NCBI GenBank assembly: GCA_948470905.1
Contig: CAOKQK010000016.1
Span: 1-49,852, forward strand
Origin: an uncultured Lachnospiraceae bacterium
Lineage (GTDB): Bacteria > Bacillota > Clostridia > Lachnospirales > Lachnospiraceae
Direction of reading: 5' to 3'
Length of the DNA: 49,852 bases
In this document: positions 13,196-40,088 of the stretch, one piece after another
Layout of the letters: the number at the start of each line of letters is the position of its first letter
Numbering within the stretch: the first letter of the stretch is position 1
Translations under genes and position numbers: made by a program
Notes under the pieces: model-generated
Seen by the model: the letters and a program-made list of their open reading frames with translations, nothing else
What the model was told of the DNA's origin: nothing
Database searches by the model: none

Positions 13196-13230
13196 CTCCT
13201 ATTACAGTTCCGTCTCTACACTGCGAGACT
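13196..13230 (-). repeat. Leader repeat, partial copy at the second MCP start
   Basis: On the minus strand this reads CAGTGTAGAGACGGAACTG, then TAATAGGAG, eight bases before the ATG. The same sequence with the Shine-Dalgarno at its edge occurs before the genes starting at 21169, 24550 and 40024. Only the 3' linker part is present here; the long hairpin is missing. Confidence 0.75.
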
Positions 13231-14455
13231 AACACATCACCGCTTTGATAAACAAACAACAGGTATCTGTCTGACACAAAATTCAGGCACATACATCCCA
13301 GGATCAACGCAGTGCTGTACTAATCAAATCAACTATGGTTTATGGTTCCAAAAATGGATCGGCTTAGAAATCCATTTCCGCTCGCGAAGCCTCAGTCGCG
13401 TGGCAGATAAAGAATTAGTCCCCAACTGTATTAGTCCACATTGGTATTTATAGCTGCACTTATATTCAAAAAACCCAACTGTCCTGCAGACCGGCTGCAC
13501 TGTCAGACATCAGGGATAAGGATCTGTCCATAAACGAACTGTAAAAAAGATTTGTGGAATATGCCGAAATTAAAGCCTGTCCGGCGGAGAAATCTTCGAT
13601 GCCATGTAGGACCAGGGAATTTTCATCCTGATTTTTTCATCGAAGACTGTGAAAGAAGAAACATTTCCCATTGCTAATATGAGAGACCAGGTATAAAAAA
13701 TCTATGAAACATGCAGGCAGGAAAGGAAAACCCTCCCACTAAAAATAATTTCTTACAGACTGGCAAAGCGCCATTCATAACAAAACCCATGTAAATGAAT
13801 TTACATGAACAACATACCGCCGCGTGATAACAGATTCATTACCACAGGGGCTGCACACGATACTGTCAAAGCATACAAATCGCCCAACTCAAACACCCGG
13901 CAGTCGTTACTCGAGCTACATAATAATGCAGACATAATTACCATCAAGAACTAAGGATCTGTCGATAAATAATCTTTCAATTTGACTTGTCTAAAGCCAC
14001 ATAAAACTGCGTCGTTATCAGTCAGCGTACCCCAGTACGCCTCCTTCTTCCTCCTTGTCTATGCGGATTTATCCTGCGCCAAATTAAAAGTTATTTCCTG
14101 ACAGCTCCTAAGGATTATGTCATACGTCAGCAATCACTCCCCTCTCCATCACGGCACGCCTGAAATGGCGTGTACAATTATTAGTCGACATTCTTAATGT
14201 CAACATTATTGTAACACAACTTTCTGTAAAAGTCACCCAAAATATTTATAAAATGTATTACGGATATAACCATTCACATATGGTTTGGATAGACATTATG
14301 TGACGGCCGCTCATGATGCAGGTATCTAACATGTACGCGGCCAGCGCTCCATGCCCTGTACGGCACCTGCACCAAAAGCGGCCTGAAATCCACTTGTGTT
14401 AAATGATCTGTGAACTATGACAACAGGTACAGAAACATATTTTTTCAATAGCTTC
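13231..14455. other. Long non-coding region between MCP and murF
   Basis: About 1.2 kb without a convincing gene. It contains a lone end motif AAGGATCTGTCCATAAA at 13518-13534 that matches the left end of the MITE at 13952. It also holds an inverted repeat TCTTCGATG/CATCGAAGA (13593-13655), a palindrome around CATGTAAATGAATTTACATG (13789-13808), a CACGCC-tgaaat-GGCGTG hairpin near 14155-14172 and a dyad GTCGACATTCTTAATGTCAAC near 14184-14204. The mix looks like accumulated repeat debris. No tRNA or ncRNA family was recognised. Confidence 0.55.
13952..14111. mobile_element. MITE-like element, copy 2
   Basis: About 160 bp with terminal inverted repeats. The left end reads TAAGGATCTGTCGATAAATAA and the right end, on the minus strand, TTAGGAGCTGTCAGGAAATAA, each followed by a related TTT-AATTTG block. 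The core GTCAGCGTACCCCAGTACGC with CTCCTTCTTCCTCCTTGTCT matches the core of copy 3 (17092-17252) on the opposite strand. It is non-coding. Confidence 0.75.
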
Positions 14456-15985
14456 CTAACGTTTGACAGGGATTATCGGGGCCTGTGCCTGCTTTGCGCC
14501 CCTGCACAGCATTTCCACCACTCCTGCAAACTCCATGGCATGGGATGCTTTCACGAGAATGGTACACCCCCCGGGAAATTCCGCCACCGCCTGCTCCAGG
14601 GCCTCCAGCAGCGCATCCCTTGTGGGAAAATAACAGATTTCACCCGCGCTCCCTGCCTTTTCTGCCGCCTCGTACATGTGCCGCGACCGCTCTCCCACAC
14701 AGAACAGCTTCTGCAGCCCTGCCCGGACGGCATACTCCCCAACCTCCGCATGTAGTCTGTCGGAATTTTCGCCCAGCTCAAACATATCTCCCAGAATCGC
14801 TATTTTATCCGTGTCTGCCATGGAGAGTAGGTCAATGGCGGCTTTCATACTGGCGGGATTAGCATTATAGCAGTCGTCGATCAGGGTATACCTGTCGAGA
14901 CGGATCAGGTGGTTGCGCCCGCTTACAGGGACAATCCCGCCCACCCCGGCGGCAATCTCCTCCGATGTCAGCCCCAGCAGCCGCCCTACACATGCCGCTG
15001 CCGCCGCATTGCGCACCATATGTACGCCTGGCAGGGGAACATGTACCCTGACCTGGGCATCTGTGCCGCCCGACACTTCCCCGCACTCCGGAGCCCCAAA
15101 AAGGGGCTCTGCACCTCTCCCCGCACTCTCCCTGAACACCAGCACGGCGTCACTTCCCCAGAGCCCTCTGCTCTCAATGCGCAGTGCGCTGACTTCTTCC
15201 CTGGGATTCTCTCCCAAGCCAAAAAAATGAGGCTCATGCCCTTTTATTGTAGTCAGCTCAGAGAGCTTGTCATCACCGCCGTTCAGACAGATCTGGCCGT
15301 CTTCTGCCATAAAGTCAAAAATTTCTGATTTCGCCCTTAAAATGCCCTCCCTGTCTTTCAAATTTTCCAGGTGGCTCTGGCCAATATTGGTCATGACACA
15401 TATGTCAGGTCTTGCCATCCTGCTCAGCCGGTGCATTTCACCAAAATTGCTGATGCCCATCTCCACCACAGCAATCTCATGCTCCTTTCGGATACGCAGC
15501 AGCGTCAGGGGCACTCCGATCTCGTTGTTAAAATTACCCTCTGTTTTCAGCACCTTATACTTTTGTGCAAGCACTCCTGCGATAAATTCCTTTGTGCTGG
15601 TCTTGCCCACACTTCCGGTAATGCCAACCACTTTCACCTGCAGCTTTCTGCGATAGCACTCTGCAATATCCTTCAATGCCTGCAGCGTATCCTCCACCAG
15701 AAGATAGCTTCCCCACTCAGACGCCTTGCAGCCATGCTCCGCCTCCACCTGCTCCGGCTTCTTCTGGGTGATCACCAGCGCGGCGCCCTTGGCAAATACT
15801 TCTGTGATAAATTTATGTCCATCCACCCGCTCTCCCACGGTGGCAAAGAAAACGCCCCCCGCCTCCACCTTCCTGGAGTCTAATACCGCAGAGGTGACAC
15901 CTGCGTCGCCATCGGCTCCTCCTCCCAGCACAAGGGTCCCGCCTGCTGCCGCCGCAATTTCCTTTATATTCAGATCCATAATCAT
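14456..15985 (-). CDS. murF: UDP-N-acetylmuramoyl-tripeptide--D-alanyl-D-alanine ligase
   Basis: Mur ligase that adds the D-Ala-D-Ala dipeptide (made by the adjacent Ddl) to the UDP-MurNAc-tripeptide in the cytoplasm, using ATP. The N-terminal domain is of the MurF type (DSRKVEAGGVFFAT). The P-loop is GITGSVGKTSTKE (about residues 121-132), and the central domain has NEIGVPLTLL and VVEMGISNFGEM. The C-terminal domain contains DDCYNANPASMKAAI. At about 509 residues it is longer than usual, because of an extra loop around GRGAEPLFGAPECGEVSGG and an alanine-rich C-terminal end. The start at 15985 has GGAG six bases upstream. Upstream in-frame ATGs lie inside the repeat at the ddl-murF junction. 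Likely co-transcribed with ddl. Confidence 0.95.
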   Translation of the reverse strand: MIMDLNIKEIAAAAGGTLVLGGGADGDAGVTSAVLDSRKVEAGGVFFATVGERVDGHKFITEVFAKGAALVITQKKPEQVEAEHGCKASEWGSYLLVEDTLQALKDIAECYRRKLQVKVVGITGSVGKTSTKEFIAGVLAQKYKVLKTEGNFNNEIGVPLTLLRIRKEHEIAVVEMGISNFGEMHRLSRMARPDICVMTNIGQSHLENLKDREGILRAKSEIFDFMAEDGQICLNGGDDKLSELTTIKGHEPHFFGLGENPREEVSALRIESRGLWGSDAVLVFRESAGRGAEPLFGAPECGEVSGGTDAQVRVHVPLPGVHMVRNAAAAACVGRLLGLTSEEIAAGVGGIVPVSGRNHLIRLDRYTLIDDCYNANPASMKAAIDLLSMADTDKIAILGDMFELGENSDRLHAEVGEYAVRAGLQKLFCVGERSRHMYEAAEKAGSAGEICYFPTRDALLEALEQAVAEFPGGCTILVKASHAMEFAGVVEMLCRGAKQAQAPIIPVKR

Positions 15986-16001
15986 CCCATTCTCCATTAT
16001 T

Positions 16002-16060
16002 GTGCCGCTCACTCTCTTAACCGTGCCGCTCACTCCCCTTAATCGTGCCGCCGCATGCGC
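16002..16060 (-). repeat. 21-22-bp tandem duplication at the ddl-murF junction
   Basis: GTGCCGCTCACTCTCTTAACC (16002-16022) is followed by a 22-bp near copy (16023-16044) and a partial third (from 16045). The ddl stop codon (16017-16019) lies inside the first plus-strand unit. Because one unit is 22 bp, the frame shifts between copies and the second copy is read to a stop. Confidence 0.75.
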
Positions 16061-17078
16061 CTACCGCATAGGTTATGATCCGCTCACACAGCTCCGGGAA
16101 GTCAATCCCCAGAGCCGCCGCCTCCTGGGGGAGCAGCGACGTGGACGTCATCCCCGGCAGACTGTTTGCTTCCAGACAGAAGATTTCCCCCGCCTCGCTC
16201 ATCCGGAAGTCCATGCGGGCATAGCTTTGCATCCGCAGCGCCGCGAACACGCGCTCCGCAATATCCTGCAGCTCCCTGGTCTTCTCCGGGGAAATCTCCG
16301 CCGGACAGGTTTCCACGGTGCTGCCTGCCTGATATTTATTTTTGTAATCGTAGAAGCCCTGTTTTGGCGCCATTTCAATAACCGGCAGCGCCTTGCCGTC
16401 CATGACCCCGACAGAGAATTCCCTGCCCTTTATGTACTGTTCCACAATGACCTCATTGCCGTAGCAAAACGCTTCCTGCTTCGCCCTGGCATATTCGTCC
16501 TCGCCGGCTGCTATGCAGACGCCCACGCTGGAACCGCCGCAGCACGCCTTTACCATACAGGGAAAAATTACCTTTTGTGTCTCCTCCTCCCCTGCCTTCA
16601 GCCGGAAGCCCGGAGGGGTTGGGATGCCGTATGCCCTGAAAATATCCTTGGTGATCCCTTTGTCCATAGCCATGGCGGAGCTGACAGAATCTGTTCCCGT
16701 ATAAGGGATTCCCATCAGCTCGAAACATGCCTGGATCTTGCCGTCCTCGCCGTTTGGCCCGTGGAGCGCTATGAACACCACGTCCGCCATACCGCAGACC
16801 GCCAGCACATTTGGGCCAAAAAAGCTTTTCCCTCCGTCCTTTCGCAGCGACTTCACCGCCTCCAGGTCAGGAGTCTGCTCGCTGACCGCGCCTATCTGCG
16901 CCGCCCAGTCCGTCTCCCGTTCAAAGATATCTTCTATATCCCCTTCATAGCCAAGATACACATCCAGCAGGATTGCCTGATGCCCTTTTTTCTTGAGCGC
17001 CCTGTAGATCATGCCGCCGGAACTCAGTGACACGTCCCTCTCCGTACTGATACCCCCTGCCAATACTACTATCTTCAA
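16017..17078 (-). CDS. ddl: D-alanine--D-alanine ligase
   Basis: ATP-grasp enzyme joining two D-Ala molecules for peptidoglycan, cytoplasmic, 353 residues. The N-terminal LAGGISTERDVSLSSG has the conserved Glu and Ser. HGPNGEDGKIQ, GTDSVSSAMAMDKGITK and the C-terminal MDFRMSEAGEIFCLEANSLPGMTSTSL provide the ATP/Mg and substrate sites. The omega loop GFYDYKNKYQAGS keeps the Tyr of ordinary D-Ala-D-Ala ligases, which argues against a VanA/B-type (D-Lac) enzyme. The start is TTG at 17078 with AGGAGG seven bases upstream. That Shine-Dalgarno abuts a MITE (17092-17252). The gene lies 31 bp upstream of murF. Confidence 0.93.
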   Translation of the reverse strand: MKIVVLAGGISTERDVSLSSGGMIYRALKKKGHQAILLDVYLGYEGDIEDIFERETDWAAQIGAVSEQTPDLEAVKSLRKDGGKSFFGPNVLAVCGMADVVFIALHGPNGEDGKIQACFELMGIPYTGTDSVSSAMAMDKGITKDIFRAYGIPTPPGFRLKAGEEETQKVIFPCMVKACCGGSSVGVCIAAGEDEYARAKQEAFCYGNEVIVEQYIKGREFSVGVMDGKALPVIEMAPKQGFYDYKNKYQAGSTVETCPAEISPEKTRELQDIAERVFAALRMQSYARMDFRMSEAGEIFCLEANSLPGMTSTSLLPQEAAALGIDFPELCERIITYAVGACGGTIKGSERHG

Positions 17079-17091
17079 TCTTACACCTCCT

Positions 17092-17252
17092 AGTACATCG
17101 AAAAATAAGTTTCTGGCTATATCGCGCAGAATGATTTTTGCATAGACAAGGCGGAGGAAGGAGGCGATGCGGTGGCATCGTTGACTGACGACAACGAAGT
17201 ATATGCAAAATCAGGCAAGCGATATGGCTAGTTACTTATTATTCGATGTACT
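17092..17252. mobile_element. MITE-like element, copy 3, inserted in the ddl leader
   Basis: Terminal inverted repeats of about 50 bp. The left end reads GTACATCGAAAAATAAGT and the right end, on the minus strand, GTACATCGAATAATAAGT; both continue into an ATATCGC and TTTTGCATA block. TA dinucleotides flank both ends, consistent with a TA target duplication as made by IS630/Tc1-mariner-type transposases. The core (GGCGGAGGAAGGAGGCGATG, then TTGACTGACGACAACG) matches copy 2 inverted. It has no coding capacity. Confidence 0.85.
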
Positions 17253-17255
17253 AGT

Positions 17256-17360
17256 CCAGTTCCGCCCCTTCTCTCCTACGCCCCCACTGGCTGGAAGAAA
17301 TTTCACACGCTTCCGCGTCTTCATTTCCTTCCGGGGGCGTTTCCGTTTCGCGGCTGTTTT
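17256..17360 (-). repeat. Leader repeat, full copy (ddl), separated from its gene by the MITE
   Basis: On the minus strand, a long hairpin has ACGCCCCC pairing with GGGGGCGT and GGAAGGAAAT pairing with AATTTCTTCC, capped by ACGC-GGAA-GCGT with a GNRA-type loop. The linker GGGGCGGAACTGGA follows, where the MITE interrupts. Removing the MITE restores GGAACTGGACTAGGAGG, matching the intact leader before 24550. The following 200 bp to 17556 contain no supported gene. Confidence 0.8.
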
Positions 17361-17556
17361 AAGCATCAATCCAAAATTTGGAAGCCTGCCTCCAAATTTA
17401 CCCTCATGCCGCTCAATCTCCTCATAGGATACATATTCCGCATAAAGCCGGCACATGACAATCCTGAGACACTTTAATCATGAATCTATGGTCCACGACC
17501 GCCATTCGCCGCCTGCGGAATGAGCACGCCCATTTTTCTCACCAACGCTCATTATA

Positions 17557-18747
17557 TCATATTTTATCCATATAACAAGTCTTTCTGCCGTCAAAGACAA
17601 CTTCCCCGCCGATTATGGTGTAAAGCGTTTCAGTGAAAACCTCCATGGGATTTCCGCTGAAAATGGCAATGTCCGCATCCTTGCCCACCTCCAGGCTGCC
17701 TACCCTGTCCGCTACCCCGCAGATGATCGCAGGATAAATGGTAATCGCCTTATAGCCCTCCTCCATGGGCAGGCCGGATTTGACTGCCAAGCCGGCGCAC
17801 AGAGGCAGGGACTGGATCAGAGAGACGGGATGATCCGTGGTGACGGCGGTCATCAATCCTGCGCGGTTCAATACCCCTGCGGTCTTGAATGCCACATTCT
17901 GCACCTCTATCTTGCTCCGGCTGGCAAGATCCGGCCCAACAATGGCTGGAAAGCCCTCCCTCGCCAGCTCATCCGCGATAAGATGTCCTTCCGAGCAGTG
18001 GTCCAGAGTCATTTTCAGGTTAAATTCCCTGGCGATCCTGATTGCCGTGAAAATGTCGTCCACCCGGTGTACATGCGCCTTTAGGGGGATTTCCCGGCGC
18101 AACACAGGCAGCCAGCACTCCAGGCAGAAATCTTCCTCGAAATCCTCGCCGTTATCCTGGGCCTTTTTCTTGTTCCGGGCATATTGCGAAGCCCGTGTCA
18201 GTTCCTCCCGGAGCATGCCTGCAATCGCCATTCTCGTGGAAGGGCTTTTCCCCTGGCCGGAGTAATTAACCTTGGGATTTTCCCCGAAGGCGACCTTCAT
18301 TGCCGCCGGCGCCTTCACTACCAGGTCATCCACCCTGCGCCCCTTTGTCTTGAGGAAGGCAAACTGGCCGCCCACCACATTGGAGCTGCCCGGCCCTATC
18401 ATTGCCGAGGTGATCCCCGCCCTCACAGCATCGTCAAATGCCGCGTCCATTGTATTGATCGCGTCAATTGCCCTGAGATAGGGCGTCAGAGGTTCGACTG
18501 TCTCATTACAGTCATCTCCCTCCATACCTTTCTTTTCCTCCGTGATTCCCATGTGGCAGTGGGCTTCTATCAGCCCCGGCATGACAATGCCATCCGCCGC
18601 CTGGATTACCTGCTCATGACCAGCGGGATGAATTTTGATTTCATCCCGCCGCCCTATTTCTGCTATTTTGCCGTTTTCAATATGAATACAGCCGTCCTGG
18701 ATATCCGGACCCGCCATAGTCTTGATCGTTCCACCCAAAATATACAT
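17557..18747 (-). CDS. Amidohydrolase (imidazolonepropionase-related)
   Basis: Metal-dependent hydrolase of the amidohydrolase superfamily, about 396 residues, predicted cytoplasmic. The pattern is an N-terminal beta sandwich (ILGGTIKTMAG...GKIAEIG), metal site HCHMGI after DGIVMPGLIEA, further metal-site candidates HVHRVDD and LDHCSEG, and the aspartate in TTDHPV. It ends with a second sandwich half (GSLEVGKDADIAIFSGNPMEV). Related proteins act on cyclic amides or dipeptides, and the substrate cannot be named here. The start at 18747 has AAGGA seven bases upstream. An ATG at 18762 is also possible. It follows the M23-like gene closely and is likely in the same transcript. Confidence 0.85.
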   Translation of the reverse strand: MYILGGTIKTMAGPDIQDGCIHIENGKIAEIGRRDEIKIHPAGHEQVIQAADGIVMPGLIEAHCHMGITEEKKGMEGDDCNETVEPLTPYLRAIDAINTMDAAFDDAVRAGITSAMIGPGSSNVVGGQFAFLKTKGRRVDDLVVKAPAAMKVAFGENPKVNYSGQGKSPSTRMAIAGMLREELTRASQYARNKKKAQDNGEDFEEDFCLECWLPVLRREIPLKAHVHRVDDIFTAIRIAREFNLKMTLDHCSEGHLIADELAREGFPAIVGPDLASRSKIEVQNVAFKTAGVLNRAGLMTAVTTDHPVSLIQSLPLCAGLAVKSGLPMEEGYKAITIYPAIICGVADRVGSLEVGKDADIAIFSGNPMEVFTETLYTIIGGEVVFDGRKTCYMDKI

Positions 18748-18768
18748 ATGCCTGTCCTTCATACCATT

Positions 18769-19791: not shown

Positions 19792-19957
19792 ATCTGCATC
19801 CTTTCCTTTTTTTGGCTTAAAGCTGGTAAATCTGCAAGCCCCGGGATTTGCGCGCAAAACACTTCTGTGCGCTTCAAGCCTTTGGGCATTGCCAAATATT
19901 ACTTCGCTATCATTTTGCCCGCATAGGAAAAAATTATGCAGAATATTTTAATTATGG

Positions 19958-19988
19958 CAAAAAAACAAGAGGGCATTACGCCCCCTTG
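19958..19988 (-). terminator. Intrinsic terminator after the EF-hand gene
   Basis: On the minus strand ACAAGGGGGC pairs with GCCCTCTTGT (one mismatch) around a 4-nt loop and is followed by seven T. The stem overlaps the stop codon at 19976-19978. Confidence 0.88.
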
Positions 19989-21169
19989 TCATACTTTGCT
20001 ACATCCACATGCTGTACTGTCCCCGCAAGCCCGTTTTCATAGAGAAAAATGCCGCTGTTGCGGATCGCCCCGTTGGTTCGCCCGTCCTGCCCTGTGAGCG
20101 TGAAATCTGTGGAAACATTCTGCAGGCAGATAGCTCCCACGCCCTTGTCCGCAAGCCTGTAGAGCACATCCTTCCCATTTTCATCCTTCGTCCATATCTT
20201 CAGCCTGCTCCATATGGCATCGTTCTCATCAATCCAGCCGTTGCCGTCCTCGTCATATTCTGCCAGATCTGCAAAGCCGTTGCCGCTGGCTGTGCCAAAA
20301 AGCTCGCTCCCGTCATTGATGACGCCGTCGCCGTTTTTGTCCAGGGCAAGATATCCGCTGCCTGAGCCCAGCTGCGACACTTCATCAAGCTCCCCGTCCC
20401 CATCGATATCAAAATAAAAAGTCTGGTCGGAAAGCGACGCCACATCCGTATCCAGATTGATCACAAGCGGATCGCACATGCTGAAGGAGGCAAGCTCCAG
20501 GTCTTCCCGAAAGGTCTGCTGGAACCGCCTGCTCATCTCCACATTCACCTGGAAGCTGATCTCCCTGCCGTCAGCGGTGCGCACCTTTCCCACTGTGGAA
20601 AAAGACGTGTCCTCCGCCTCCCTCTGGAAGGTTTCCTGACTGTAATTCAGGACCCTGGTACGGACAGCCGGATCCCTGAGCCCCACATTCAGGGAAGCGC
20701 TTTCATAGCTCATCTGCATACTGCTCTGAGAATAACTCATCAATCCGCCCTGACCAGGCTGTGCTGCCGCTCCGGGATTGCCCATCTGCATCCCCCGGTC
20801 CTCCATCCAGCGGTTGAAGCGGTCTTTTCTGTTTGAAAAAAGCAGGTCAAAGATGTAGCGGATCGTGGTCTGGCGGAAGTCCTCCGCCGTCCTGCCGGCG
20901 GAGCTGCGGATATTCACCCTGGTACTTGCGGTCTGAAAGCGTGCCTGCCAGTTCTGGAACGTATTTTGATCCTGCGCCGCCTTTCCTCCCCCCTTATTCT
21001 CCGTGGTCGTCTGACCCTGGGCATTCTCTCCCACTGCTGCATTCAGGGCGTCATTGCCCTGGGTCGGTCCGTCTTGATAATCCGTTATCACAAACCGACG
21101 TATTGATACAGAAGCTTTCCTGTAGCTTCTGGCGGATTCCATTCCTACTTTGCCGGAATCAATTACCAA
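19976..21169 (-). CDS. EF-hand-containing protein of unknown function
   Basis: A 397-residue protein with no signal peptide. It opens with VIDSGKVGMESARSYRK, then a variable Gln/Gly-rich middle region including GMQMGNPGAAAQPGQGG. It ends with three EF-hand/dockerin-like calcium loops: DIDGDGELDEV (near residue 256), DKNGDGVINDGSE (near 280) and DEDGNGWIDENDA (near 308). The C-terminal 90 residues are probably a folded calcium-dependent domain. Similar proteins seem frequent in Lachnospiraceae but I know no assigned role. The start is TTG with AGGAG nine bases upstream, and that Shine-Dalgarno belongs to a leader repeat. It is a monocistronic unit with its own terminator. Confidence 0.8.
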   Translation of the reverse strand: MVIDSGKVGMESARSYRKASVSIRRFVITDYQDGPTQGNDALNAAVGENAQGQTTTENKGGGKAAQDQNTFQNWQARFQTASTRVNIRSSAGRTAEDFRQTTIRYIFDLLFSNRKDRFNRWMEDRGMQMGNPGAAAQPGQGGLMSYSQSSMQMSYESASLNVGLRDPAVRTRVLNYSQETFQREAEDTSFSTVGKVRTADGREISFQVNVEMSRRFQQTFREDLELASFSMCDPLVINLDTDVASLSDQTFYFDIDGDGELDEVSQLGSGSGYLALDKNGDGVINDGSELFGTASGNGFADLAEYDEDGNGWIDENDAIWSRLKIWTKDENGKDVLYRLADKGVGAICLQNVSTDFTLTGQDGRTNGAIRNSGIFLYENGLAGTVQHVDVAKYDKGA

Positions 21170-21181
21170 TCTCTTATTCTC

Positions 21182-21289
21182 CTATTTAAGTTCCGTCTCT
21201 GCACTTCTTCGCCCCATGATCTGGAAGAAATTTCTGCCGCTGCGCGTCATAAATTCCTTCCGGGGCGTCTCCGTTCCGAGACTGTTTTT
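21182..21289 (-). repeat. Leader repeat, full copy before the EF-hand gene
   Basis: On the minus strand CGCCCC pairs with GGGGCG and GGAAGGAATTT pairs with AAATTTCTTCC, followed by GCAGAGACGGAACTTAAA and TAGGAG, nine bases before the TTG start. A second, partial copy (TTCCCGCTTCGGGA, then GTTCCGTCTCTACACTTCTA) lies just beyond at 21286-21332. From there to 21612 there is only the terminator at 21453-21494. Confidence 0.8.
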
Positions 21290-21452
21290 CCCGCTTCGGG
21301 ACCTGTTCCGTCTCTACACTTCTACGCCCCCCATGTCCACCCATTCTTCGCCGCCTGAGCCTCCCACCTTCCCTGGTGCAGACGCTCCCGCAGGCTGGAA
21401 CTTTTTACCGGCAACCTCCTGTCGCCCCCCCTGTCCCCCAGACAGGGTCTCA

Positions 21453-22261: not shown

Positions 22262-24550
22262 TTACACACGGTTGTAATTGATCAGGCAGCCCCTGAGGAT
22301 AATCCGGCGCTCCTCATCAGTGAGCTCGCCCAGACGAAGTTCAAACTCCTTCAAGCCGCCGTCCTTTACCACATATGCAGGAATTACCTCCGCCTTTTCC
22401 TCCACAGCCTTCTTGATGCCAGGAATGAACAGGTAATCCAGGTTATGGAAGGGCAGTTCGCCCTCTTTAATCAGGAAGGGCAGCATACCCCAGTTGATCA
22501 GGTTGGAGCGGTAACGCTTGGTGGCGTACTCATTGGCGATGTTCGCCCAGCCCCCCAGCACCTTCTGACAGGACGCCGCCTGCTCCCTGGCGGAGCCGTC
22601 TCCTGGCTTCACAGCAAATATCGTGGAGCCAAAGCCTGTATTCTCGTGTCCCACCTCCGGGAACTTCTCCTTGATGGGCGCCATCACCTCCCGGATGGCG
22701 GGCATGACATGGCAGGGATGCCCTCCCTTCATGCGTTCTTCCTCCAGGGCATGGATCGCCTTGGCGCGTCCCACATATTCAGGATCCTTACGGCTCAGAG
22801 TGAACTCCGCCAGCCCCAGCGGATTGGAGCGGTAGGAGGAAGTCTCGCCGGAGGGAATCAGCTCATCCGTAGTCGTCACAGGGTCATGGATCTCGCTGAC
22901 TACCTGCAGCAGGAGATTTTCCGGCAGCTCTCCCATGGCAGGCCAGTCCTTGATGTTGGGGCCGAACTGGATCTCCGTGTCAGGATCCGCCACACCGTGG
23001 GAATCAAACACCCTGTTGGCATAAATCTTACTGTCAAAATGATACTTATATTTGCCGATCTCCCCCTCAAAGTCCGTTGCCGGAGTCAGCACGCCCTTGT
23101 TTGCTGCAGTTGCCGCAATGGAGCGGGCGTCCATCAGCGCGACGGAGGAAATCTGTCCGTTCTGCAGCTTGCTCCCCTCACGGTTGGGGAAGTTCCTGGT
23201 GGAATGCCTGATGCTGAACGCGTTGTTGGCAGGGGTGTCGCCCGCGCCGAAGCATGGTCCGCAGAACGCTGTCTTCATGACTGCTCCAGTCTCCATGATC
23301 GCCGCCGCACAGCCGTTTTTGATCAGCTCCATATAAACAGGCATGGATGCAGGATATACGCTCAAGGTAAAGCCGTCCATGCCGATACTGCTGCCCTTTA
23401 AAATATCCGCCGCCGCACAGATATTCTCAAAGCCGCCGCCCGCACAGCCCGCGATGATGCCCTGGTCAACCATGAATTTCCCGTTCTTTATCTTATCCCT
23501 TAAATGGAACTCCACTGCGCCGTCCAGGCTTACCTGGGCGCGCTTCTCCGTCTCGTCCAGGATGTCCTCCAGGTTTGCGTTCAGTTCCTCTATAGTATAA
23601 GTATTGCTGGGATGGAAAGGCATTGCGATCATGGGGCGCACCTTTGACAGGTCCACCTGGATCATGCCGTCATAATAAGCCACCTCCCCGGGATTTAACT
23701 CCTCATAATCCTCCTGGCGTCCATGGATCTCATAAAACTCTTTGATCTCGTCATCCGTCTTCCAGATGGAAGAAAGGCAGGTGGTCTCCGTGGTCATGAC
23801 ATCAATGCCGATACGGAAGTCCGCGCTCAGGGACGCCACGCCGGGTCCCACAAACTCCATCACCTTATTTTTCACATAGCCGTTTTTAAATACCGCCCCG
23901 ATAATGGCAAGCGCCACATCCTGCGGTCCTACGCCCTTCACAGGCGCTCCGGTCAGATACACGCCCACGACCTCCGGCATATTGATATCATAGGTCTGAT
24001 TCAAAAGCTGCTTTACCAGCTCGGGTCCGCCTTCGCCCACCGCCATGGTGCCAAGGGCTCCGTAACGGGTATGGGAATCAGATCCAAGAATCATCCTGCC
24101 GCCTCCGGCAAGCATCTCCCTGGCAAACTGATGGATGACCGCCTGGTGAGGAGGCACATAGACTCCCCCATACTTTTTCGCACAGGTAAGTCCAAACATA
24201 TGGTCGTCTTCATTGATGGTGCCGCCCACCGCGCAGAGGGAATTGTGGCAGTTGGTGAGCACATAGGGCATGGGAAACTTCTGCAGCCCTGACGCCCTGG
24301 CAGTCTGTATGATACCTACAAAGGTGATATCATGGCTGGTCAGCTTGTCAAACCTGATCTTCAGCTTGTCCATGCTGCCCGATGTATTATGGCTTTTCAG
24401 GATACGGAAACAAATGGTCTGCTCCGCCGCCTCTTTTCTGGTGATTCTTTTCCCCGTTTTGCTCAGGACTGCCGCTTCCGCCTCCGGGCTGTCGGGAATG
24501 ATCTCGTTCCCTCCCACCAGATATGCGCCGCCATCCAATAATGTTACCAT
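22262..24550 (-). CDS. Aconitase-family hydratase (YbhJ-like)
   Basis: A 762-residue enzyme with the three-domain aconitase core plus swivel domain, predicted cytoplasmic and carrying a [4Fe-4S] cluster. Candidate cluster cysteines lie in [12 protein letters not shown] and [38 protein letters not shown] and [17 protein letters not shown] are substrate-site blocks of the superfamily. Overall it resembles E. coli YbhJ, annotated only as a putative hydratase, more than classic citrate aconitase. No citrate synthase or isocitrate dehydrogenase is nearby, so the substrate (citrate, methylcitrate, homoaconitate or other) is open. AGGAGG precedes the ATG and is part of a leader repeat. Confidence 0.85.
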
Positions 24551-24552: not shown

Positions 24553-24672
24553 TGATCCTCCTATTCCAGTTCCGCCCTCTACGCTTCTACGCCCCCTTGT
24601 CTGGGAGAAATTTTCAGCTGCCAAGAACGCATCTGAAAATTCTCCCGGGGCGTATCCGCTACGCGGCTGTTT
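24553..24672 (-). repeat. Leader repeat, full copy before the hydratase
   Basis: On the minus strand ACGCCCC pairs with GGGGCGT, and GGGAGAATTTTCAG pairs with CTGAAAATTTCTCCC. Linker and site follow: GGAACTGGAATAGGAGGA, seven bases before the ATG. Compared with the ddl and EF-hand copies, the stem base A-T at the third pair of GGAAG/CTTCC becomes G-C (GGGAG/CTCCC). This is a compensatory change that keeps the pairing. Confidence 0.85.
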
Positions 24673-24717
24673 AAAATCGCTGCGCGAGCAGCACAAATTG
24701 CCACAAGTGGCAATTTG

Positions 24718-24808
24718 GTAAAGTCACTTCGACGCACACTTTATGAGAGAAACTTTCATTCGCAAACGCGCTCATGAAAGTTCCTCTCGTGCGCCTTCGA
24801 GACTTTAC
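24718..24808. repeat. Imperfect long inverted repeat
   Basis: Arms of roughly 40 bp. The left arm starts GTAAAGTCACTTCGACGCAC and the right arm, on the minus strand, GTAAAGTCTCGAAGGCGCAC. Both continue into GAGA/GAGG-AACTTTCAT. It is preceded by the perfect palindrome AAATTGCCAC-aa-GTGGCAATTT (24696-24717). It lies between the metallophosphoesterase stop and the leader of the hydratase, and may act as a terminator or be another repeat family. Confidence 0.6.
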
Positions 24809-24842
24809 CTGGACTGCCACATATTATTCCTCCGGGGGCGTA

Positions 24843-31593: not shown

Positions 31594-31612
31594 GCAGACA
31601 ATATATGCATGT

Positions 31613-33490: not shown

Positions 33491-33498
33491 ACCCACAC

Positions 33499-33882: not shown

Positions 33883-34849
33883 AAATCCCCCTGACCGAAA
33901 CCTCTCCGGCATATACTTCCGTCACGCTGCCGTCCGCAAGCTCCACCAGCAGCTCACCATGGGCGTTGACCCCTCTGGAAATCCCCCGGTATTCCCCCTT
34001 TGGGTCAAGGACGCAGACCTCTTTATCCCGGCTCACCAGAAGTGCGTTATATTGCTCCAAAAGCCCTGCCAGGCTGTGCTCCTGTTCAAAACGGCCATAA
34101 TATTCTTCAAAGGCCTTCATCACATGGGCAATCAGCTGCGCCCTGGAGATCTTTTTCCCACAAAGCTGCTCCAGGCTCACCGCAGTCCGGGCAATCTCCG
34201 GCGCAAACTCCTGCCGTCTTACGTTAATGCCCGCCCCCACAACCACATGGTGGACATAATCCCTCTCCATGCTCATCTCCGTGAGCATGCCGCAGAGCTT
34301 TTTCCCCTCCGCCACAATATCGTTGGGCCACTTGATCCCCGCCCGGACGCCGCAGGCGGCGCGTATGCCCTCAGCCACAGCAAGCGCCATGACAAGCGTC
34401 ACCATGGAGACGCAGTCGGGGTCGTACTCCGGCTTCAGTATCAGGGTGAAATAGGCATTGGTCCCCGGGGGGCTGCTCCATGCCTTTCCCCTGCGCCCGC
34501 GTCCTGCAGTCTGCATATCCGCCACGATCAGCGTTCCCTGGCCGCAGCCTGCCTCCGCACTGCGCTTCGCCTGCTGGTTGGTGGAATCCACCGACTCATA
34601 ATAAAAGACCGGATGCCCTGCCCAGCGGGTTTCCATGCGGCTCTCCAGCTCATGCCGGCCGAACACGTCTCCATCTCCTTTTAACTGATAGCCCCTGTTC
34701 TGAACCGCCTCTATCTCATAGCCTTCCTTTTTCAGCTGCCCGATTGCCTTCCAGACCGCAGTGCGGGATACCCCGAAATGTTCACACAGCTCCTGGCCGG
34801 AGACATAGTCCCCTCTTTCCCTCAAAAAAGATAAGATTTCTGATTTCAT
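33869..34849 (-). CDS. birA: Biotin--[acetyl-CoA-carboxylase] ligase/repressor
   Basis: Bifunctional BirA of about 326 residues. It attaches biotin to carrier proteins and, through an N-terminal winged helix (SGQELCEHFGVSRTAVWKAIGQLKKEG, about 15-40), represses biotin genes. The catalytic domain contains QTAGRGRRGKAWSSPPG, KWPNDIVAEGKKLCGMLTEM and VVGAGINV. The C-terminal SH3-like domain ends VTEVYAGEVSVRG. The start at 34849 has AGGGA at suitable spacing. It overlaps the next gene and so starts a birA-DUF6145-coaX-dus run. Confidence 0.94.
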   Translation of the reverse strand: MKSEILSFLRERGDYVSGQELCEHFGVSRTAVWKAIGQLKKEGYEIEAVQNRGYQLKGDGDVFGRHELESRMETRWAGHPVFYYESVDSTNQQAKRSAEAGCGQGTLIVADMQTAGRGRRGKAWSSPPGTNAYFTLILKPEYDPDCVSMVTLVMALAVAEGIRAACGVRAGIKWPNDIVAEGKKLCGMLTEMSMERDYVHHVVVGAGINVRRQEFAPEIARTAVSLEQLCGKKISRAQLIAHVMKAFEEYYGRFEQEHSLAGLLEQYNALLVSRDKEVCVLDPKGEYRGISRGVNAHGELLVELADGSVTEVYAGEVSVRGIYGYV

Positions 34850-34993
34850 GGTAATCCCTTTATAACCGTTCCAAAGCGCGGACCATGGATCCACCCATAA
34901 GCGCTGTGGTATGTTGCCCCCGCTGTAAGCAACGGGGCATCAAGCTTGCAACGCTGCAGAGCGCAATGCGTCCAGGGGACGCTATGGAATGCG

Positions 34994-35051
34994 ACCCTCG
35001 CGGCATTCGCCAGGACCTTACAGGCTCACAGCTCATTGCACGCGGGAGTCA
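34994..35051. repeat. Short interspersed motif (CTCGCGGCATTCG family), copy 2
   Basis: CCTCGCGGCATTCGCCAGGA and CTCATTGCACGCGGGAGT echo the ends of the segment at 8371-8441. A strong hairpin lies nearby at 34910-34940 (ATGTTGCCCC/GGGGCAT). It occupies the gap between argF and birA. Confidence 0.4.
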
Positions 35052-35057
35052 TGATAT

Positions 35058-36041
35058 TCACAGTGTCGCCGCCATTACAGCCTTGATGGTGTGCATGCGG
35101 TTTTCCGCCTCCTGGAACACAAGAGACTGTGGCGATTCAAACACCTCGTCGGTGACTTCCATTTCCGTGATGCCAAAACGCTCCCCCATCTGTGCGCCCG
35201 TCTTGGTCTTCAGGTCGTGGAAAGCCGGCAGGCAGTGCATAAAGACTGCCTTCTCCCCTGCGTTTTCCATGACTGCCCGGTTCACCTGATAAGGGGAAAG
35301 CTCCCTGATACGCTCCGCCCACACCTCATCCGGCTCGCCCATGGATACCCACACATCGGTATAGATCACATCCGCAGCCCTTGTGCCCCCCATTACATCC
35401 TCGGTAAGCGTAATGCTGCCGCCGGTCCGGGACGCAATCTGCCTGCACTGGTCCGCCAGAGCTTTCTCCGGAAAATATTTGGCAGAGGTACATGCCGTAA
35501 AATGCATCCCCATCTTGGCGCACGCCACCATCAGGGAATTGCCCATGTTGTAGCGGGCATCCCCCATGTAGGTGAGCCTGATCCCCTCCAGATGCCCGAA
35601 ATGCTCCCGGATGGTCAACAGGTCCGCAAGCATCTGGGTAGGGTGGAACTCATTGGTCAGGCCGTTCCACACCGGCACCGCAGCGTACTCCGCCAGTTCT
35701 TCCACGATATCCTGCCCGAAACCGCGGTATTCGATTCCCTCAAACATGCCGGAGAGCACCCTTGCCGTATCTGCAATACTCTCCTTTTTGCCGATCTGTG
35801 AGCCGGAAGGATCAAGATAAATGGTCCCCATGCCAAGGTCGTGTGCGGCAACCTCAAAAGCGCACCGTGTGCGGGTACTGGTCTTTTCAAAGATCAACGC
35901 CACATTTTTCCCCCGAAGGGTATCCACAGGGATCCCCCTTTTCTTTTTATCTTTCAGCTCCGCCGCCAGATCCACCAGATATGCAATCTCCTCCTGGGTA
36001 AAATCCAGCAGCTTTAAAAAATCACGTCCCTTTAAATCCAT
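35058..36041 (-). CDS. argF: Ornithine carbamoyltransferase
   Basis: Converts ornithine and carbamoyl phosphate to citrulline, about 327 residues. The carbamoyl-phosphate loop is [33 protein letters not shown] and the catalytic HCLPAFHD are in place, and DVWVSMGE marks the ornithine loop. The start at 36041 ([14 protein letters not shown]) fits the family. A promoter (TTGAAA, 17 bp, TATAGT) lies about 60 bp upstream. No other arginine biosynthesis or deiminase genes are in the window, so the anabolic assignment follows the usual default. Confidence 0.95.
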
Positions 36042-36099
36042 GCCTGTCTTCCGCCTTTCCCGCAGCATCACTTTTCCCGCGTATCATATTCCTGATCCT

Positions 36100-36128
36100 A
36101 CTATAACTTATCTTTCCCAGTTTTTCAA
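36100..36128 (-). promoter_or_regulatory. Sigma-A promoter for argF
   Basis: On the minus strand TTGAAA (36123-36128), a 17-bp spacer and TATAGT (36100-36105), ending about 60 bp upstream of the argF start codon. Confidence 0.7.
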
Positions 36129-36137
36129 CCCTTCCGC

Positions 36138-36191
36138 AAAAAAACAACGCCACGGGCGGGAAGCCTAGGGAGAAGCTTCCTTTCCGTGGCG
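36138..36191 (-). terminator. Terminator of the NfeD-SPFH operon
   Basis: CGCCACGG (36148-36155) pairs with CCGTGGCG (36184-36191), with an inner GGAAGC/GCTTCC stem. On the minus strand it is followed by TTG and a seven-T run (36138-36144). Confidence 0.85.
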
Positions 36192-36270
36192 CATTCAGTT
36201 TCATGACCTGATTTCGGACTGGGACATGCTTGATAAAACTTTCCCTCAAACACGCCCTGACACTGCCCTC

Positions 36271-37188
36271 TTATTGTTTCGCAGTCTCTTTCAACGTCGC
36301 CGCAATACTTGCAATTCCCTGCAGTTCTGCGGGCAGAAGTATGGTTGTCGCCTTGCCGTCCGCAACCTTCTCAAACGCCTCAAGGCTCTTAATCTTCAGA
36401 ACCGCCTCGTCCGCCCCGGCCTCTTTCAGCATCCTGATACCGTCTGCATGAGCCTGCTGCACTTTGAGGATTGCTTCCGCTTCACCTTCCGCCTCACGGA
36501 TCATTTTTTCCTTCTGTGCTTCCGCACGAAGGATCGCTGACTGCTTCTCAGCCTCCGCGCGCAGGATCGCGGACTCTTTCTCACCTTCCGCCACAAGGAT
36601 CTTGGACTTCTTCTCGCCTTCCGCCCTGGTGATCGATTCACGCTTCTCGCGCTCCGCCTTCATCTGCTTCTCCATGGCGTTCTGGATGTCTGCGGGAGGA
36701 ATGATATTTTTCAGCTCCACACGGTTGACCTTGATGCCCCAGGGATCGGTAGCCAGATCCAGCGCTGCGCGCATCTTGGTATTGATAGTCTCACGGCTGT
36801 TCAGGGTCTGGTCAAATTCCAGCTCACCGATAAGGTTACGGAGAGTCGTCGCCGTCAGGTTCTCGATCGCCATCATGGGATTCTCAACGCCGTACGCAAA
36901 GAGCTTGGGATCCGTAATCTGGTAGTAAACTACCGTGTCAATCCTCATGGTCACGTTATCCTTGGTGATAACGGGCTGGGGCGGGAAATCCGCCACCTGT
37001 TCCTTCAGGTTGACCTTTCTGGCAATCTTATCCAGGAAAGGGACCTTCACATGAAAACCCACCGACCATGTACCCTGGTAAGCGCCCAGGCGCTCAACCA
37101 CGTACGCCTGTGCCTGAGGAACGACTTTCAGGCAGGACGCCAGGATCAAAAGAACGATGAACACAAGTGCAATTACAATATAGATCAT
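36271..37188 (-). CDS. SPFH/band-7 (stomatin-like) membrane protein
   Basis: A 305-residue protein with one N-terminal TM helix (about 2-22) followed by the SPFH domain (VVPQAQAYVVERLGAYQGTWSVGFHVKVPFLDKI). A long charged coiled coil with repeated AEGEKESAILRAEAEKQSAILR units follows. Stomatin-like proteins oligomerise on membranes and scaffold proteases or microdomains. An NfeD gene lies immediately upstream, the classic partner arrangement, so the two probably form one complex. The QmcA/YbbK type is the nearest known group. Confidence 0.92.
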   Translation of the reverse strand: MIYIVIALVFIVLLILASCLKVVPQAQAYVVERLGAYQGTWSVGFHVKVPFLDKIARKVNLKEQVADFPPQPVITKDNVTMRIDTVVYYQITDPKLFAYGVENPMMAIENLTATTLRNLIGELEFDQTLNSRETINTKMRAALDLATDPWGIKVNRVELKNIIPPADIQNAMEKQMKAEREKRESITRAEGEKKSKILVAEGEKESAILRAEAEKQSAILRAEAQKEKMIREAEGEAEAILKVQQAHADGIRMLKEAGADEAVLKIKSLEAFEKVADGKATTILLPAELQGIASIAATLKETAKQ

Positions 37189-37289
37189 TTGATACCTCTT
37201 TCTGCCCTGTTTTACAGGGCGTGTATTTTTTACTGTTCACCCGTCATTTCCGCGAAACATTTCCGCGCATTTTATGCCGTCTCCCGCCG

Positions 37290-37808
37290 CTACGACGGAG
37301 ACTGTGCATCCTCCATCTGTGAGACGCTCATGGGGATCGGTTTCCCCTCATCCGGGCTGTTGCCCTTTAAATTGTCATCCAGCCTCACGATCAGCTTGAC
37401 CCCGTTGATCGCCACCACCTTCACAACGGCTCCCGCCGGAATCCGAACCTTTTGGTCACTGCTTCTGGCAGTCCATTCCTGGCCGCCCACAGTCACCTGG
37501 CCAATGCCCTGGATATTGTCGATCTCACTGACAACGATTGCCTGACGCCCAACCATGCTCTCCACATTGGTCTTGACACGGTCCCTGTTAAAATATTTTA
37601 CAGCCACCGGCCTTGTAAAGAACAGGAGCAGCAGAGACACCGCAAAGAACAAGATTATCTGCAGCCATACGGGCGCGCCCAAAAGAGACGCGATCACCGC
37701 CACCAGGGCTCCTCCGGCAAACCAGATCGTAGTCAGCCCCAGTGTCAGCACCTCTATCACAATCATCAAGATCAGCAAAACCAACCAGAAAATCATTATC
37801 TCATTCAT
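37290..37808 (-). CDS. NfeD-family membrane protein
   Basis: About 172 residues. Three to four hydrophobic segments (about 5-80, e.g. IFWLVLLILMIVIEVLTLGL) are followed by a C-terminal OB-fold domain (VGRQAIVVSEIDNIQGIGQVTVGGQEWTARS). This is the short (NfeD1b-like) form without the ClpP-type protease domain. Adjacent SPFH genes are its usual partners. The start at 37808 is supported by GGGAG eight bases upstream. A possible promoter (TTGCGG, 17 bp, TACACT) lies about 70-100 bp further up. Confidence 0.88.
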   Translation of the reverse strand: MNEIMIFWLVLLILMIVIEVLTLGLTTIWFAGGALVAVIASLLGAPVWLQIILFFAVSLLLLFFTRPVAVKYFNRDRVKTNVESMVGRQAIVVSEIDNIQGIGQVTVGGQEWTARSSDQKVRIPAGAVVKVVAINGVKLIVRLDDNLKGNSPDEGKPIPMSVSQMEDAQSPS

Positions 37809-37943
37809 CCAATCACTCCCTTCACCTGCAGACTGTAACACAGTCACTATTTTTCTGGTATCTATATGCTTAGTGTACTACATTTAGACCCCCACCGCAA
37901 TCTTTTTCTTTACGCAATGCCCTTTATCACTGTATAAAATATT

Positions 37944-37983
37944 TCCAGGGGGCGGCAATGCTTCCGCACTGCCGCCCCCTGGA
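37944..37983. terminator. GC-rich terminator after the SleB-like gene
   Basis: A perfect stem TCCAGGGGGCGGCA/TGCCGCCCCCTGGA (37944-37957 with 37970-37983). On the minus strand it is followed by AAATATTTTAT, a weak T-tract. Confidence 0.75.
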
Positions 37984-38015
37984 GCTTATGATCATTTATA
38001 TTTTATTTCCGCAGT

Positions 38016-39107
38016 TTAATAGAACACATGGTTGCCGATAACCAGCCCTGCACGTCCGTTGTTTCTTCTAAAGTGCGTTCTGTCACCTACGTTAGACTTG
38101 CCCGACAAAGCTTCCTTCGCCGCCTCGATACAGCTGGGGTTGATCTTTCCGGACTGTAATACCTGATCCACCTTTCCGGACATTGCCGGCGTGAACTGGC
38201 CCGAAGCATAAATGACACCCTGTATCGTATTCGGATACGCCGAACTCCTGACACGGTTCATGACCACCGCACCCACAGCTACCTGGCCCTCGTAGCTCTC
38301 TCCGCGGGCCTCACAGTGGATCAGCGCTGCCAACAGCATCATGGTATCTGTATCAACAGTAAATTCGCCGTAATTCACAAAGCGCTTTGCTTCTTCCTCC
38401 TGCTCCTTCTTCTCGCGCGCCGCAATCTCCTCCACGGTTTCCCCGGCGTCGATAACGAAATCAAGAGTCACATAGTCCGCCTGCACATAACCGTCATGCC
38501 CATCATAGTCTACGCACACCCAGCCTTCCGTATCCTGGTTTATGACCTCGACGATTTCCCCCTTTGGCAGCAGGCCGCAGACTGCCGCGTCCTTTTGGGG
38601 CATCTCCCTGACGCGGAGAGATTCCGTATTGATGGTCGCCACCATCTTGCCCACATTATTTGCCGCGGTAACAGCTTCGTCCCCGAACAACAGATACTCG
38701 TCGGAACACCATCCGATGACATTGCCGGACTGCAGCTTCGTCCATCCGTCCTTCCTTTCCAGGATCGTGCCGCCGCAGTCTCCATACAGCTTGCCGACCT
38801 TCCTGGCAGTCACTGCCGCATCGCTCCTGACATTCAGGGCATTGGTCACGTTCGCCATGACCAGCCTGCTCTCTGGCTCCTCCTTCTTTTCCATCTGTAA
38901 TACAAGGTTTAACTCCCGGGCAGTGGCATATACCGCCTCTGTGGAGCTGGAATTTTTGGGGTTCAGTACTGACGCAATACCGCCGCACAGTTGATCTGGG
39001 GAATCGTCATAGTCCTCAGCCTGAACGCTCACACCTGCCTGCAGGAACAGGACCATGGACAATACCACGCCCAGCACTGCAGCAAACAGCCTTCTGCTTT
39101 CTGCCAT
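38016..39107 (-). CDS. Secreted SleB-type cell-wall hydrolase with two SH3 domains
   Basis: A 363-residue exported protein. The signal peptide (MAESRRLFAAVLGVVLSMVLFLQAGVSVQA) is followed by two bacterial SH3 domains (LNVRSDAAVTARKVG and LRVREMPQKDAAVCG blocks). A linker rich in Glu and Lys comes next, then a C-terminal hydrolase_2/SleB domain with LIHCEARGESYEGQVAVGAVVMNRV and GQFTP. SleB-type enzymes are lytic transglycosylases acting on spore cortex or vegetative wall, and the SH3 domains probably bind peptidoglycan. GGAGG lies eight bases before the ATG, with a strong promoter at 39195-39223. Confidence 0.9.
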   Translation of the reverse strand: MAESRRLFAAVLGVVLSMVLFLQAGVSVQAEDYDDSPDQLCGGIASVLNPKNSSSTEAVYATARELNLVLQMEKKEEPESRLVMANVTNALNVRSDAAVTARKVGKLYGDCGGTILERKDGWTKLQSGNVIGWCSDEYLLFGDEAVTAANNVGKMVATINTESLRVREMPQKDAAVCGLLPKGEIVEVINQDTEGWVCVDYDGHDGYVQADYVTLDFVIDAGETVEEIAAREKKEQEEEAKRFVNYGEFTVDTDTMMLLAALIHCEARGESYEGQVAVGAVVMNRVRSSAYPNTIQGVIYASGQFTPAMSGKVDQVLQSGKINPSCIEAAKEALSGKSNVGDRTHFRRNNGRAGLVIGNHVFY

Positions 39108-39194
39108 TTTCTTTACCTCCAAAACAATCTTCCCGAAATTATTTCATTTTCTAAATAAAATTATTACGAACTTATTAAATATGTTACGGAAGTT

Positions 39195-39223
39195 ATCATA
39201 GCAGATGCAAAAAGTTTTGTCAA
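39195..39223 (-). promoter_or_regulatory. Sigma-A promoter for the SleB-like gene
   Basis: On the minus strand TTGACA (39218-39223), a 17-bp spacer and TATGAT (39195-39200), lying directly after the proC stop. Confidence 0.8.
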
Positions 39224-39226
39224 GTG

Positions 39227-40024
39227 TCACATGTTTCTGGATTTGTTGATACAAGCCTCCACCGCATCCATCACTGCGGCGCGCATGCCCTTTTCCTCCA
39301 GCACCTTCACTGCCTGTATCGTGGTGCCGCCCGGCGAACACACCATATCCTTGAGCTCGCCGGGATGCTTCCCGGTCTCCAGCATCAGCCTGGCGCTGCC
39401 CATCACGGACTGCGCTGCAAATTCATACGCCTGCTTTCTGGGCATGCCTCCCGCCACTGCCGCGTCCGCCATGGCCTCAATGAACATGAACACGTACGCG
39501 GGAGAGCTGCCGCTGACCCCCACTACCACATCCATCAGCCTCTCGGGCACTACACTGGCCGTCCCGAAAGCGCGCAGGAGCGCCAGCACCCTGTCCACAT
39601 CCTCCTGGGGTACTTCCTCCCCCGCGCACACACCGGTGCATCCTTCCATCACCAGCGCCGGTGTATTGGGCATACAGCGGATAATCTTTAATTCCGGCCT
39701 GCCGAACGCCTTCTTTAAATAATCCAGGTCCCTGCCCGCCGCGATGCTGACCACCAGGGCGTCCGGCCTCACCGTCTCCCTGATTTCCTCTATAACCTCC
39801 GGAAAAAAGGCCGGCTTCACCGCAAGGAATAAAATGTCCGCCTGCCTGGCCACCTGTACGTTATCGGTCACAGCCGTTATGCCAAATTTTACCTCCATTT
39901 TCTGTGCAGTTGATTCTGTTTTTGAAGACCCTGCAATCTCTTCCGGCTTCACAAGCCCCTTGCCCAGCATGCCGCCGATCATCGCCGCCGCCATGTTCCC
40001 CAGGCCAATAAATCCTACCTTCAT
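39227..40024 (-). CDS. proC: Pyrroline-5-carboxylate reductase
   Basis: Last step of proline synthesis, NAD(P)H-dependent, 265 residues. The Rossmann motif is IGLGNMAAAMIGGML. CMPNTPALVMEGCTGV and the C-terminal GSSPAYVFMFIEAMADAAVAGG and PGGTTIQAVKVLEE are standard ProC motifs. AGGAGG lies seven bases before the ATG, within a leader-repeat sequence identical over 18 bases to that before the hydratase gene. No proA or proB is nearby. Confidence 0.95.
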   Translation of the reverse strand: MKVGFIGLGNMAAAMIGGMLGKGLVKPEEIAGSSKTESTAQKMEVKFGITAVTDNVQVARQADILFLAVKPAFFPEVIEEIRETVRPDALVVSIAAGRDLDYLKKAFGRPELKIIRCMPNTPALVMEGCTGVCAGEEVPQEDVDRVLALLRAFGTASVVPERLMDVVVGVSGSSPAYVFMFIEAMADAAVAGGMPRKQAYEFAAQSVMGSARLMLETGKHPGELKDMVCSPGGTTIQAVKVLEEKGMRAAVMDAVEACINKSRNM

Positions 40025-40027
40025 TCT

Positions 40028-40088
40028 GCTCCTCCTATTCCAGTTCCCGCTTGCGGGAACTTTTCCGCCCTCTTAGCTTCTACACCCC
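40028..40088 (-). repeat. Leader repeat, partial copy before proC
   Basis: On the minus strand GTTCCCGCAAGCGGGAAC (a palindrome) runs into GGAACTGGAATAGGAGGA and the proC start. The upstream part resembles GAAG-TAGA-GGCGG of the full copies but the long hairpin is absent; that position is the end of the TrmH-family gene. Confidence 0.7.

Follow-up and report, generated by a model that had tools for sequence, protein, structure and literature searches.

A structured, dispersed repeat found in sense just upstream of Shine-Dalgarno sequences in an uncultured Lachnospiraceae bacterium

The repeat and its copies in the window

The DNA considered here (the window) is a stretch of 49,852 nucleotides (nt) from an uncultured Lachnospiraceae bacterium (GenBank assembly GCA_948470905.1, contig CAOKQK010000016.1, positions 1 to 49,852). 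On its minus strand, copies of one repeat stand upstream of the genes for an aconitase-family hydratase, a second methyl-accepting chemotaxis protein (MCP), ddl, proC, and an EF-hand protein, the last a 397-amino-acid open reading frame (ORF). An earlier note on this DNA had reported nearly identical sequence at these five places, a long hairpin in three of the copies, and an interruption before ddl; all five places read as described. The hydratase, EF-hand, and ddl sites are three full copies of one unit, and the ddl copy is indeed split from its gene by an insertion of 165 nt. Across 30 loci, the unit is a structured repeat of about 105 nt that consists of AAACAG, a long hairpin, CGGAACT, and often GGAAT, after which come the Shine-Dalgarno (SD) sequence and the start codon. 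The copies and the features tied to them are as follows.

24568-24672, minus strand: full copy before the aconitase-family hydratase gene (start at 24550); 117.5 bits with model R1
24553-24567, minus strand: linker GGAAT and Shine-Dalgarno sequence AGGAGG behind the hydratase copy; read in the sequence
24712-24810, minus strand: divergent second copy, upstream of the hydratase copy; 37.4 bits, E = 6.6e-7
21189-21287, minus strand: full copy before the 397-amino-acid ORF, which has a TTG start at 21169; 95.2 bits
21285-21331 (ends approximate), minus strand: remnant, with the 3' arm of another copy and then a small hairpin; read in the sequence
17258-17359, minus strand: full copy upstream of ddl, split from the gene by the insertion; 78.2 bits
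17090-17254 (165 nt), minus strand: insertion that lies between the copy and ddl and has inverted arms of 36 nt; 86% complementary (inverted repeat I2)
13206-13230, minus strand: mini copy before the second MCP gene, with the outer ends joined and the central hairpin missing; read in the sequence
40041-40090, minus strand: 3' half of a copy and a small hairpin before proC; read in the sequence, with the small hairpin also found in pattern matches

The wider stretch around the remnant (21304 to 21406) reaches only 14.1 bits with the repeat model. At the proC site, the small hairpin sits between GGCGGAA and CTGGAATAGGAGG, and the stop codon of the upstream ORF (40080 to 40886) falls within the half copy. 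Such a second, small hairpin, AGTTCCCGCNNGCGGGAAC, is often found between CGGAA and CTGGAAT, where it displaces the start by about 20 nt; its matches numbered 35 forward and 35 reverse, and a large share of these are one palindrome counted on both strands. A 27-nt stretch inside the ddl insertion recurs inverted at 14038 to 14064, and so the insertion may be another dispersed repeat.

The repeat is abundant in the source genome. A first search with the hydratase copy gave at least 54 matches from scoring 40 of the 128 first-look candidates, and a covariance model built from 27 copies found at least 138 copies at an E value of ≤0.01 in the 3.7-Mb genome, a count that may be a lower bound, as 150 of 2,381 candidates were scored. 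The pattern GAACTGGAATAGGAG occurs 36 times there, compared with 0 occurrences of the reversed pattern. Several matches to the model lie at contig ends, where repeats are expected in a draft assembly. Copies are single or in tandem. At three loci (L003, L023, and L031), some copies are directly preceded by another conserved stretch, about 34 nt long (AGTCCAGC...AAGAGGAAATTTA), as if by a second module.

Orientation, distance to gene starts, and the Shine-Dalgarno sequence

Position relative to genes was assessed for 219 copies from 17 genomes, of which 138 come from the source genome and 81 (mostly better-scoring matches) from 16 relatives; 39 were not counted, being followed by another copy or having less than 160 nt of room. 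An ORF start with an SD lay within 100 nt in the sense direction for 158 of the 180 terminal copies, compared with 1 of 180 for the other side and with 890 of 5,000 for random positions. Placement before starts on the sense strand, noticed earlier at a handful of genes, holds genome-wide. Tandem copies divided between overlapping loci account for 6 of the 22 misses (L034, L036, L037, L043, L049, and L016); 2 others are interrupted by insertions (the ddl copy and L030), and 1 runs into N (L210). In the remaining 13, the ORF is short or unscored, the SD is weak, more repeats are present, or no start is apparent. At one locus, L174, the same array is present two times, in inverted orientation, and both are counted.

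Grouping the copies into 185 arrays gives the same picture. A downstream gene was called for 172 arrays, 169 of which are co-oriented with that gene, and the start lies at 0 to 100 nt in 153. The distance from the end of the copy to the start is 13 to 23 nt in 99 arrays and 35 to 48 nt in 34, with the SD in between. None of the 172 arrays faces an opposite-strand gene within 400 nt; at the three opposite-strand calls, which are 466 to 785 nt off, a sense SD and ATG are present that the caller missed. In 13 of the 185 arrays, no gene was called before the locus edge, and L064 was flagged as lying inside a gene at a contig edge. The source genome alone contributes 122 arrays, 114 with a called gene, 111 of these co-oriented and 101 at 0 to 100 nt. 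Such strict orientation requires either orientation-specific insertion or selection on RNA.

The downstream genes, as read from the sequence, look unrelated: hydratase, MCP, ddl, and proC in the window and, for example, murD elsewhere. This does not fit a riboswitch or a dedicated cis-regulatory leader, which would stand before functionally related genes.

The earlier note had further read the repeat as the supplier of a ribosome-binding site (RBS) to the genes that follow it. Its picture of a structured sense repeat before unrelated starts stands, having come through the refuting checks that the note proposed; the supply of the SD is for the most part not supported. The evidence comes from a comparison of two species that are about 91% alike (G389 and G391) over about 240 kb of aligned DNA. 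At three sites (J7, J31, and J38), the element is found in one species only, and both species have GGAGG and the start codon, with the spacer alike in the two except for one base at J7. The copies at J7 and J38 are short or degenerate, and J31 holds a pair of full ones. At J34, a pair of copies is likewise present in one species only, and there is no clear SD. No target duplication was seen by eye at these four sites, which have no clean single insertion. The gap between mraY and murD provides a further case, measuring 145 nt with the element in the source genome; it could be measured in 24 of 29 relatives, being 10 to 76 nt in 18 and 87 to 257 nt in 6. The murD start retains a noncanonical AGAAAGG behind the element in the source genome, and AGAAAGG-like sequences stand there in several relatives. 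The aconitase gene was uninformative on the boundaries of the element as an empty-site comparison, with relatives about 80% alike in DNA. In a murD leader of another genome (L255, G059), several CGGAACTGGAAT-like tails stand behind different small hairpins, and several hairpin families may share this tail.

Where the repeat ends bears on the same question. Its repeated part closes at about CGGAACTGGAAT, and in the site comparisons, the SD lies outside this part. It is unlikely, on our assessment, that the repeat is a mobile RBS cassette that carries the SD and hands it to the following gene, even though GGAATAGGAGG is the most frequent copy ending and inner tandem copies at times end with a partial SD, such as AATAGGA. 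Such a cassette would also account for the stronger signals at element genes, where a perfect SD is found in 29 of 55 compared with 9 of 78 other genes (p = 4e-7) and TA precedes GGAG in 28 of 49 compared with 2 of 25. However, the bases after CGGAACT vary (GGAAT is present in 47 of 127 parsed copies), and in its strict form, the cassette is weakened by the J7, J31, and J38 comparisons and by the murD leader. The stronger SDs and more frequent TA may instead mean that the element prefers strong SDs or that it adds the last bases 5' of the SD.

Predicted folds of the leader and gene start suggest that the hairpin may leave the SD accessible. The probability that the SD is unpaired is 0.550 for 55 element genes, compared with 0.452 when the element is shuffled (p = 2e-5).

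Fold, turnover, and a proposed origin

Covariation supports the hairpin across 136 copies (132 distinct) from 17 genomes. In this alignment, 95.6% of cells are paired, two-sided changes occur at 25 of the 25 modelled pairs, and the covariation score is 0.431, compared with 0.154 for shuffled alignments and no more than 0.093 after sliding of the structure. The compensatory stem change between GGAAG/CTTCC and GGGAG/CTCCC, first seen in the window, is real, with A-U in 65 and G-C in 57 of the distinct copies at that pair. Conservation extends to the unpaired parts, namely AAACAG, CGGAACT, and a pair of internal loops that have G-N-A on either side. The GNA/GNA arrangement suggests that these loops would form sheared G-A pairs. 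One copy folded together with its start codon gives a z score of -5.4 relative to shuffles. No Rfam family reached threshold over the copies (the window at the gathering cutoff, window positions 12000 to 41000 at E ≤ 3, and 20 loci at E ≤ 0.5). A model of group II intron domains D1 to D4 matched over a copy in Acetatifactor muris (L288:5247-5426) at 27.8 bits, below its cutoff of 32.

Orthologous sites allow the fold to be followed between species. Among the pairs at 14 orthologous copies, 27 have compensatory changes, 8 have one-sided changes with pairing preserved, and 10 are broken, whereas about 7 two-sided changes would be expected under independence. Moreover, paired positions differ less than unpaired ones (76 of 697 versus 129 of 706; p = 1e-4), and in three ortholog pairs, picked after the counts had been seen, the stems carry 0 changes in 148 positions and the loops carry 25 in 153. 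For the counts at the 14 orthologous copies, mini copies were removed by hand, the pair L394:12951/L412:12780 was guessed within its array, and one pair is identical. The stem conservation seen at orthologous sites points to maintenance of the fold at the RNA level.

These data bear on the idea of a neutral DNA palindrome, whose covariation would come from arm-to-arm DNA repair and whose placement would come from selection against insertions elsewhere, with no function in RNA. Tandem gain and loss would fit such a palindrome, since tandem copy number differs between related species. It would also fit unrelated repeats that are seen by eye in one of the two species just upstream of SDs at other junctions (J5, J6, J15, and J26, within L381-L415); from these, the position may be a general landing place. 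We regard the neutral palindrome as quite improbable, because it leaves the near-absolute orientation unexplained, because arm repair should erase the bulges and GNA/GNA loops that are conserved and not perfected, and because of the contrast between stems and loops in the three ortholog pairs.

A single cellular factor might read the hairpin and control more than 100 genes as a shared regulatory RNA element. The covariation, the conserved unpaired ends and loops, the constrained stems at orthologous sites, and the several GGA triplets close to the SD are what would be expected of such an element. It seems an improbable account all the same, as the repeat is patchy within one genus and its genes are seemingly unrelated. 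CsrA was considered as the reader and set aside as uninformative, since its presence fails to separate element-positive genomes (13 of 15) from element-negative ones (37 of 46).

The distribution, among gut bacteria related to Acetatifactor, is patchy. The repeat was found in 15 of 61 genomes of the genus and, in a sample of the family for which up to 13 candidates were scored per genome, in at least 6 of 299; the source genome is included in both counts. A pattern scan of named genomes gave at least 99 stretches, and the titles among the matches listed are Lachnospiraceae, Blautia sp., Acetatifactor muris, Bacterium D16-50, and uncultured bacterium. No match was found in viral contigs with one pattern or in phages and plasmids with one copy as the query. 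For 95 of 133 copies, the nearest nontandem copy is in the same genome, compared with 30 on average and 47 at most for shuffled labels. Comparable sites in G389 and G391 number 12 shared and 9 in one species only, with four arrays left out: two B_C3 arrays whose partner contig was unscanned and two unmappable A arrays. From this patchy distribution and site turnover, we infer that the element is probably mobile.

Attempts to find its mobilizer gave negative results. In 551,415 bases of the source genome, a biased sample fetched around matches, no larger element with the same ends, such as the autonomous transposon behind a MITE, was found, and lone ends numbered 5 of the 5' kind and 37 of the 3' kind, by their look remnants or chance matches. 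Mobilization by a RAYT (Y1) transposase was rejected, as the presence of Y1_Tnp shows no association with the element: it is found in 6 of the 15 genomes of the genus that carry the element and in 14 of the 46 that do not.

The reading that we consider reasonably probable is that of a nonautonomous, dispersed, RNA-structured repeat. It would settle in sense orientation immediately 5' of SDs that are already there, and in the mRNA, it would form a closed hairpin that leaves the SD open. Some mobilizer would insert the copies immediately before such an SD, and once transcribed within the 5' leader or intergenic gap, the copies would fold on themselves. Because the SD would be left free, expression would survive, and the repeat would be tolerated as a closed hairpin that ends before the SD. 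Hairpins can act as barriers to 5' exonucleases, and most likely, this one would be a barrier too, insulating or protecting the cistron behind it.

Several points weigh against the settling of a closed hairpin before existing SDs. First, strong matches (>85 bits) account for only 3 of the 9 one-species sites, and the scores at the remaining 6 are 24.7 to 43.8 bits. The species comparison yielded no clean insertion with a target duplication, an empty site may reflect loss, and no mobilizer was found. Second, the alignments behind both the covariation and the orthologous-copy counts were fitted to the structure, which favors it, and three pairs that are just 72 to 74% alike, and may be replaced copies, contribute 13 of the 27 compensatory changes. 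Third, the array analysis relied on a home-made gene caller, based on codon usage, that rewards an SD. Finally, exposure of the SD is not significantly above that of 36 genes without the element (0.550 versus 0.491; p = 0.20), and there is no enrichment inside operons, with a co-oriented upstream gene at 145 of 171 arrays compared with 85 of 93 baseline genes (p = 0.18).

A more far-reaching version, which we hold to be rather doubtful, is a mobile RNA module that homes on the few bases before SDs and gives more than 100 unrelated genes a common leader readable by a single factor; that factor, under the same doubt, could be an RNase, an RNA-binding protein, or the 30S subunit. Small dispersed repeats are usually taken as debris of DNA transposition. 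Here, covariation like that of a dedicated structured RNA is joined to a nearly absolute sense orientation and a fixed place adjacent to the SD. This raises the testable question of whether a mobile repeat that rewrites many leaders at once is a tolerated passenger or a posttranscriptional regulator, which matters for the annotation of such genomes and for expression control in gut clostridia.

The window also contains features that are separate from the repeat. A SAM riboswitch lies at 47407 to 47509 on the minus strand (RF00162, 63.9 bits). Direct repeats of 36 nt and 33 nt, about 67 to 86% alike, form short arrays at 9530 to 9673 and 6235 to 6333, and a 65-nt inverted repeat pair (8162 to 8226 and 45915 to 45979) is 85% complementary and about 38 kb apart.

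Comparison with known bacterial repeats

A literature search that covered few subscription journals found no earlier description of the element. One likeness is to mycobacterial interspersed repetitive units (MIRUs). MIRUs occur as tandem copies, as does the element. They are small, apparently mobile repeats whose insertion at start codons affects the gene little, and they contain an ORF coupled at -4 nt to the downstream gene (PMC12548453). The element is likewise near the start and in sense, as the co-orientation and distance counts indicate, although it does not overlap the start codon. It differs in being a hairpin without ORF coupling at -4 nt, the start mostly following 13 to 23 or 35 to 48 nt on, after the SD.

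A second likeness is to the TAACTGA repeats of Beggiatoaceae, which are mostly forward and a few nucleotides before the starts of unrelated genes and for which a translational role has been proposed (PMC4679880). The forward placement before starts of unrelated genes is shared. However, these are 7-nt direct repeats without a fold that overlap the expected RBS, and most of the genes that follow have no SD (PMC4679880), whereas the element is folded, with an SD present and behind it.

REP sequences and BIMEs, associated with RAYT (TnpA-REP), are also high-copy intergenic palindromes, but REPs are 20 to 40 bp long, carry a GTAG or CGTC tag, and lie mostly downstream of coding regions (PMC3733652), while the element is about 105 nt long, is upstream of starts, and has no association with Y1 transposase genes. 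ERIC is a repeat whose RNA has an orientation-dependent effect: in one orientation, it affects mRNA stability, acting on upstream transcripts via an RNase E site (PMC2229807). The available part of that description does not mention an SD-proximal sense placement such as that of the element.

The element belongs to neither the MIRUs nor the TAACTGA repeats and resembles both in position. Given a MIRU-like place and the failure of the tested MIRU and REP features, we file it among the small dispersed bacterial repeats as a variant of its own.

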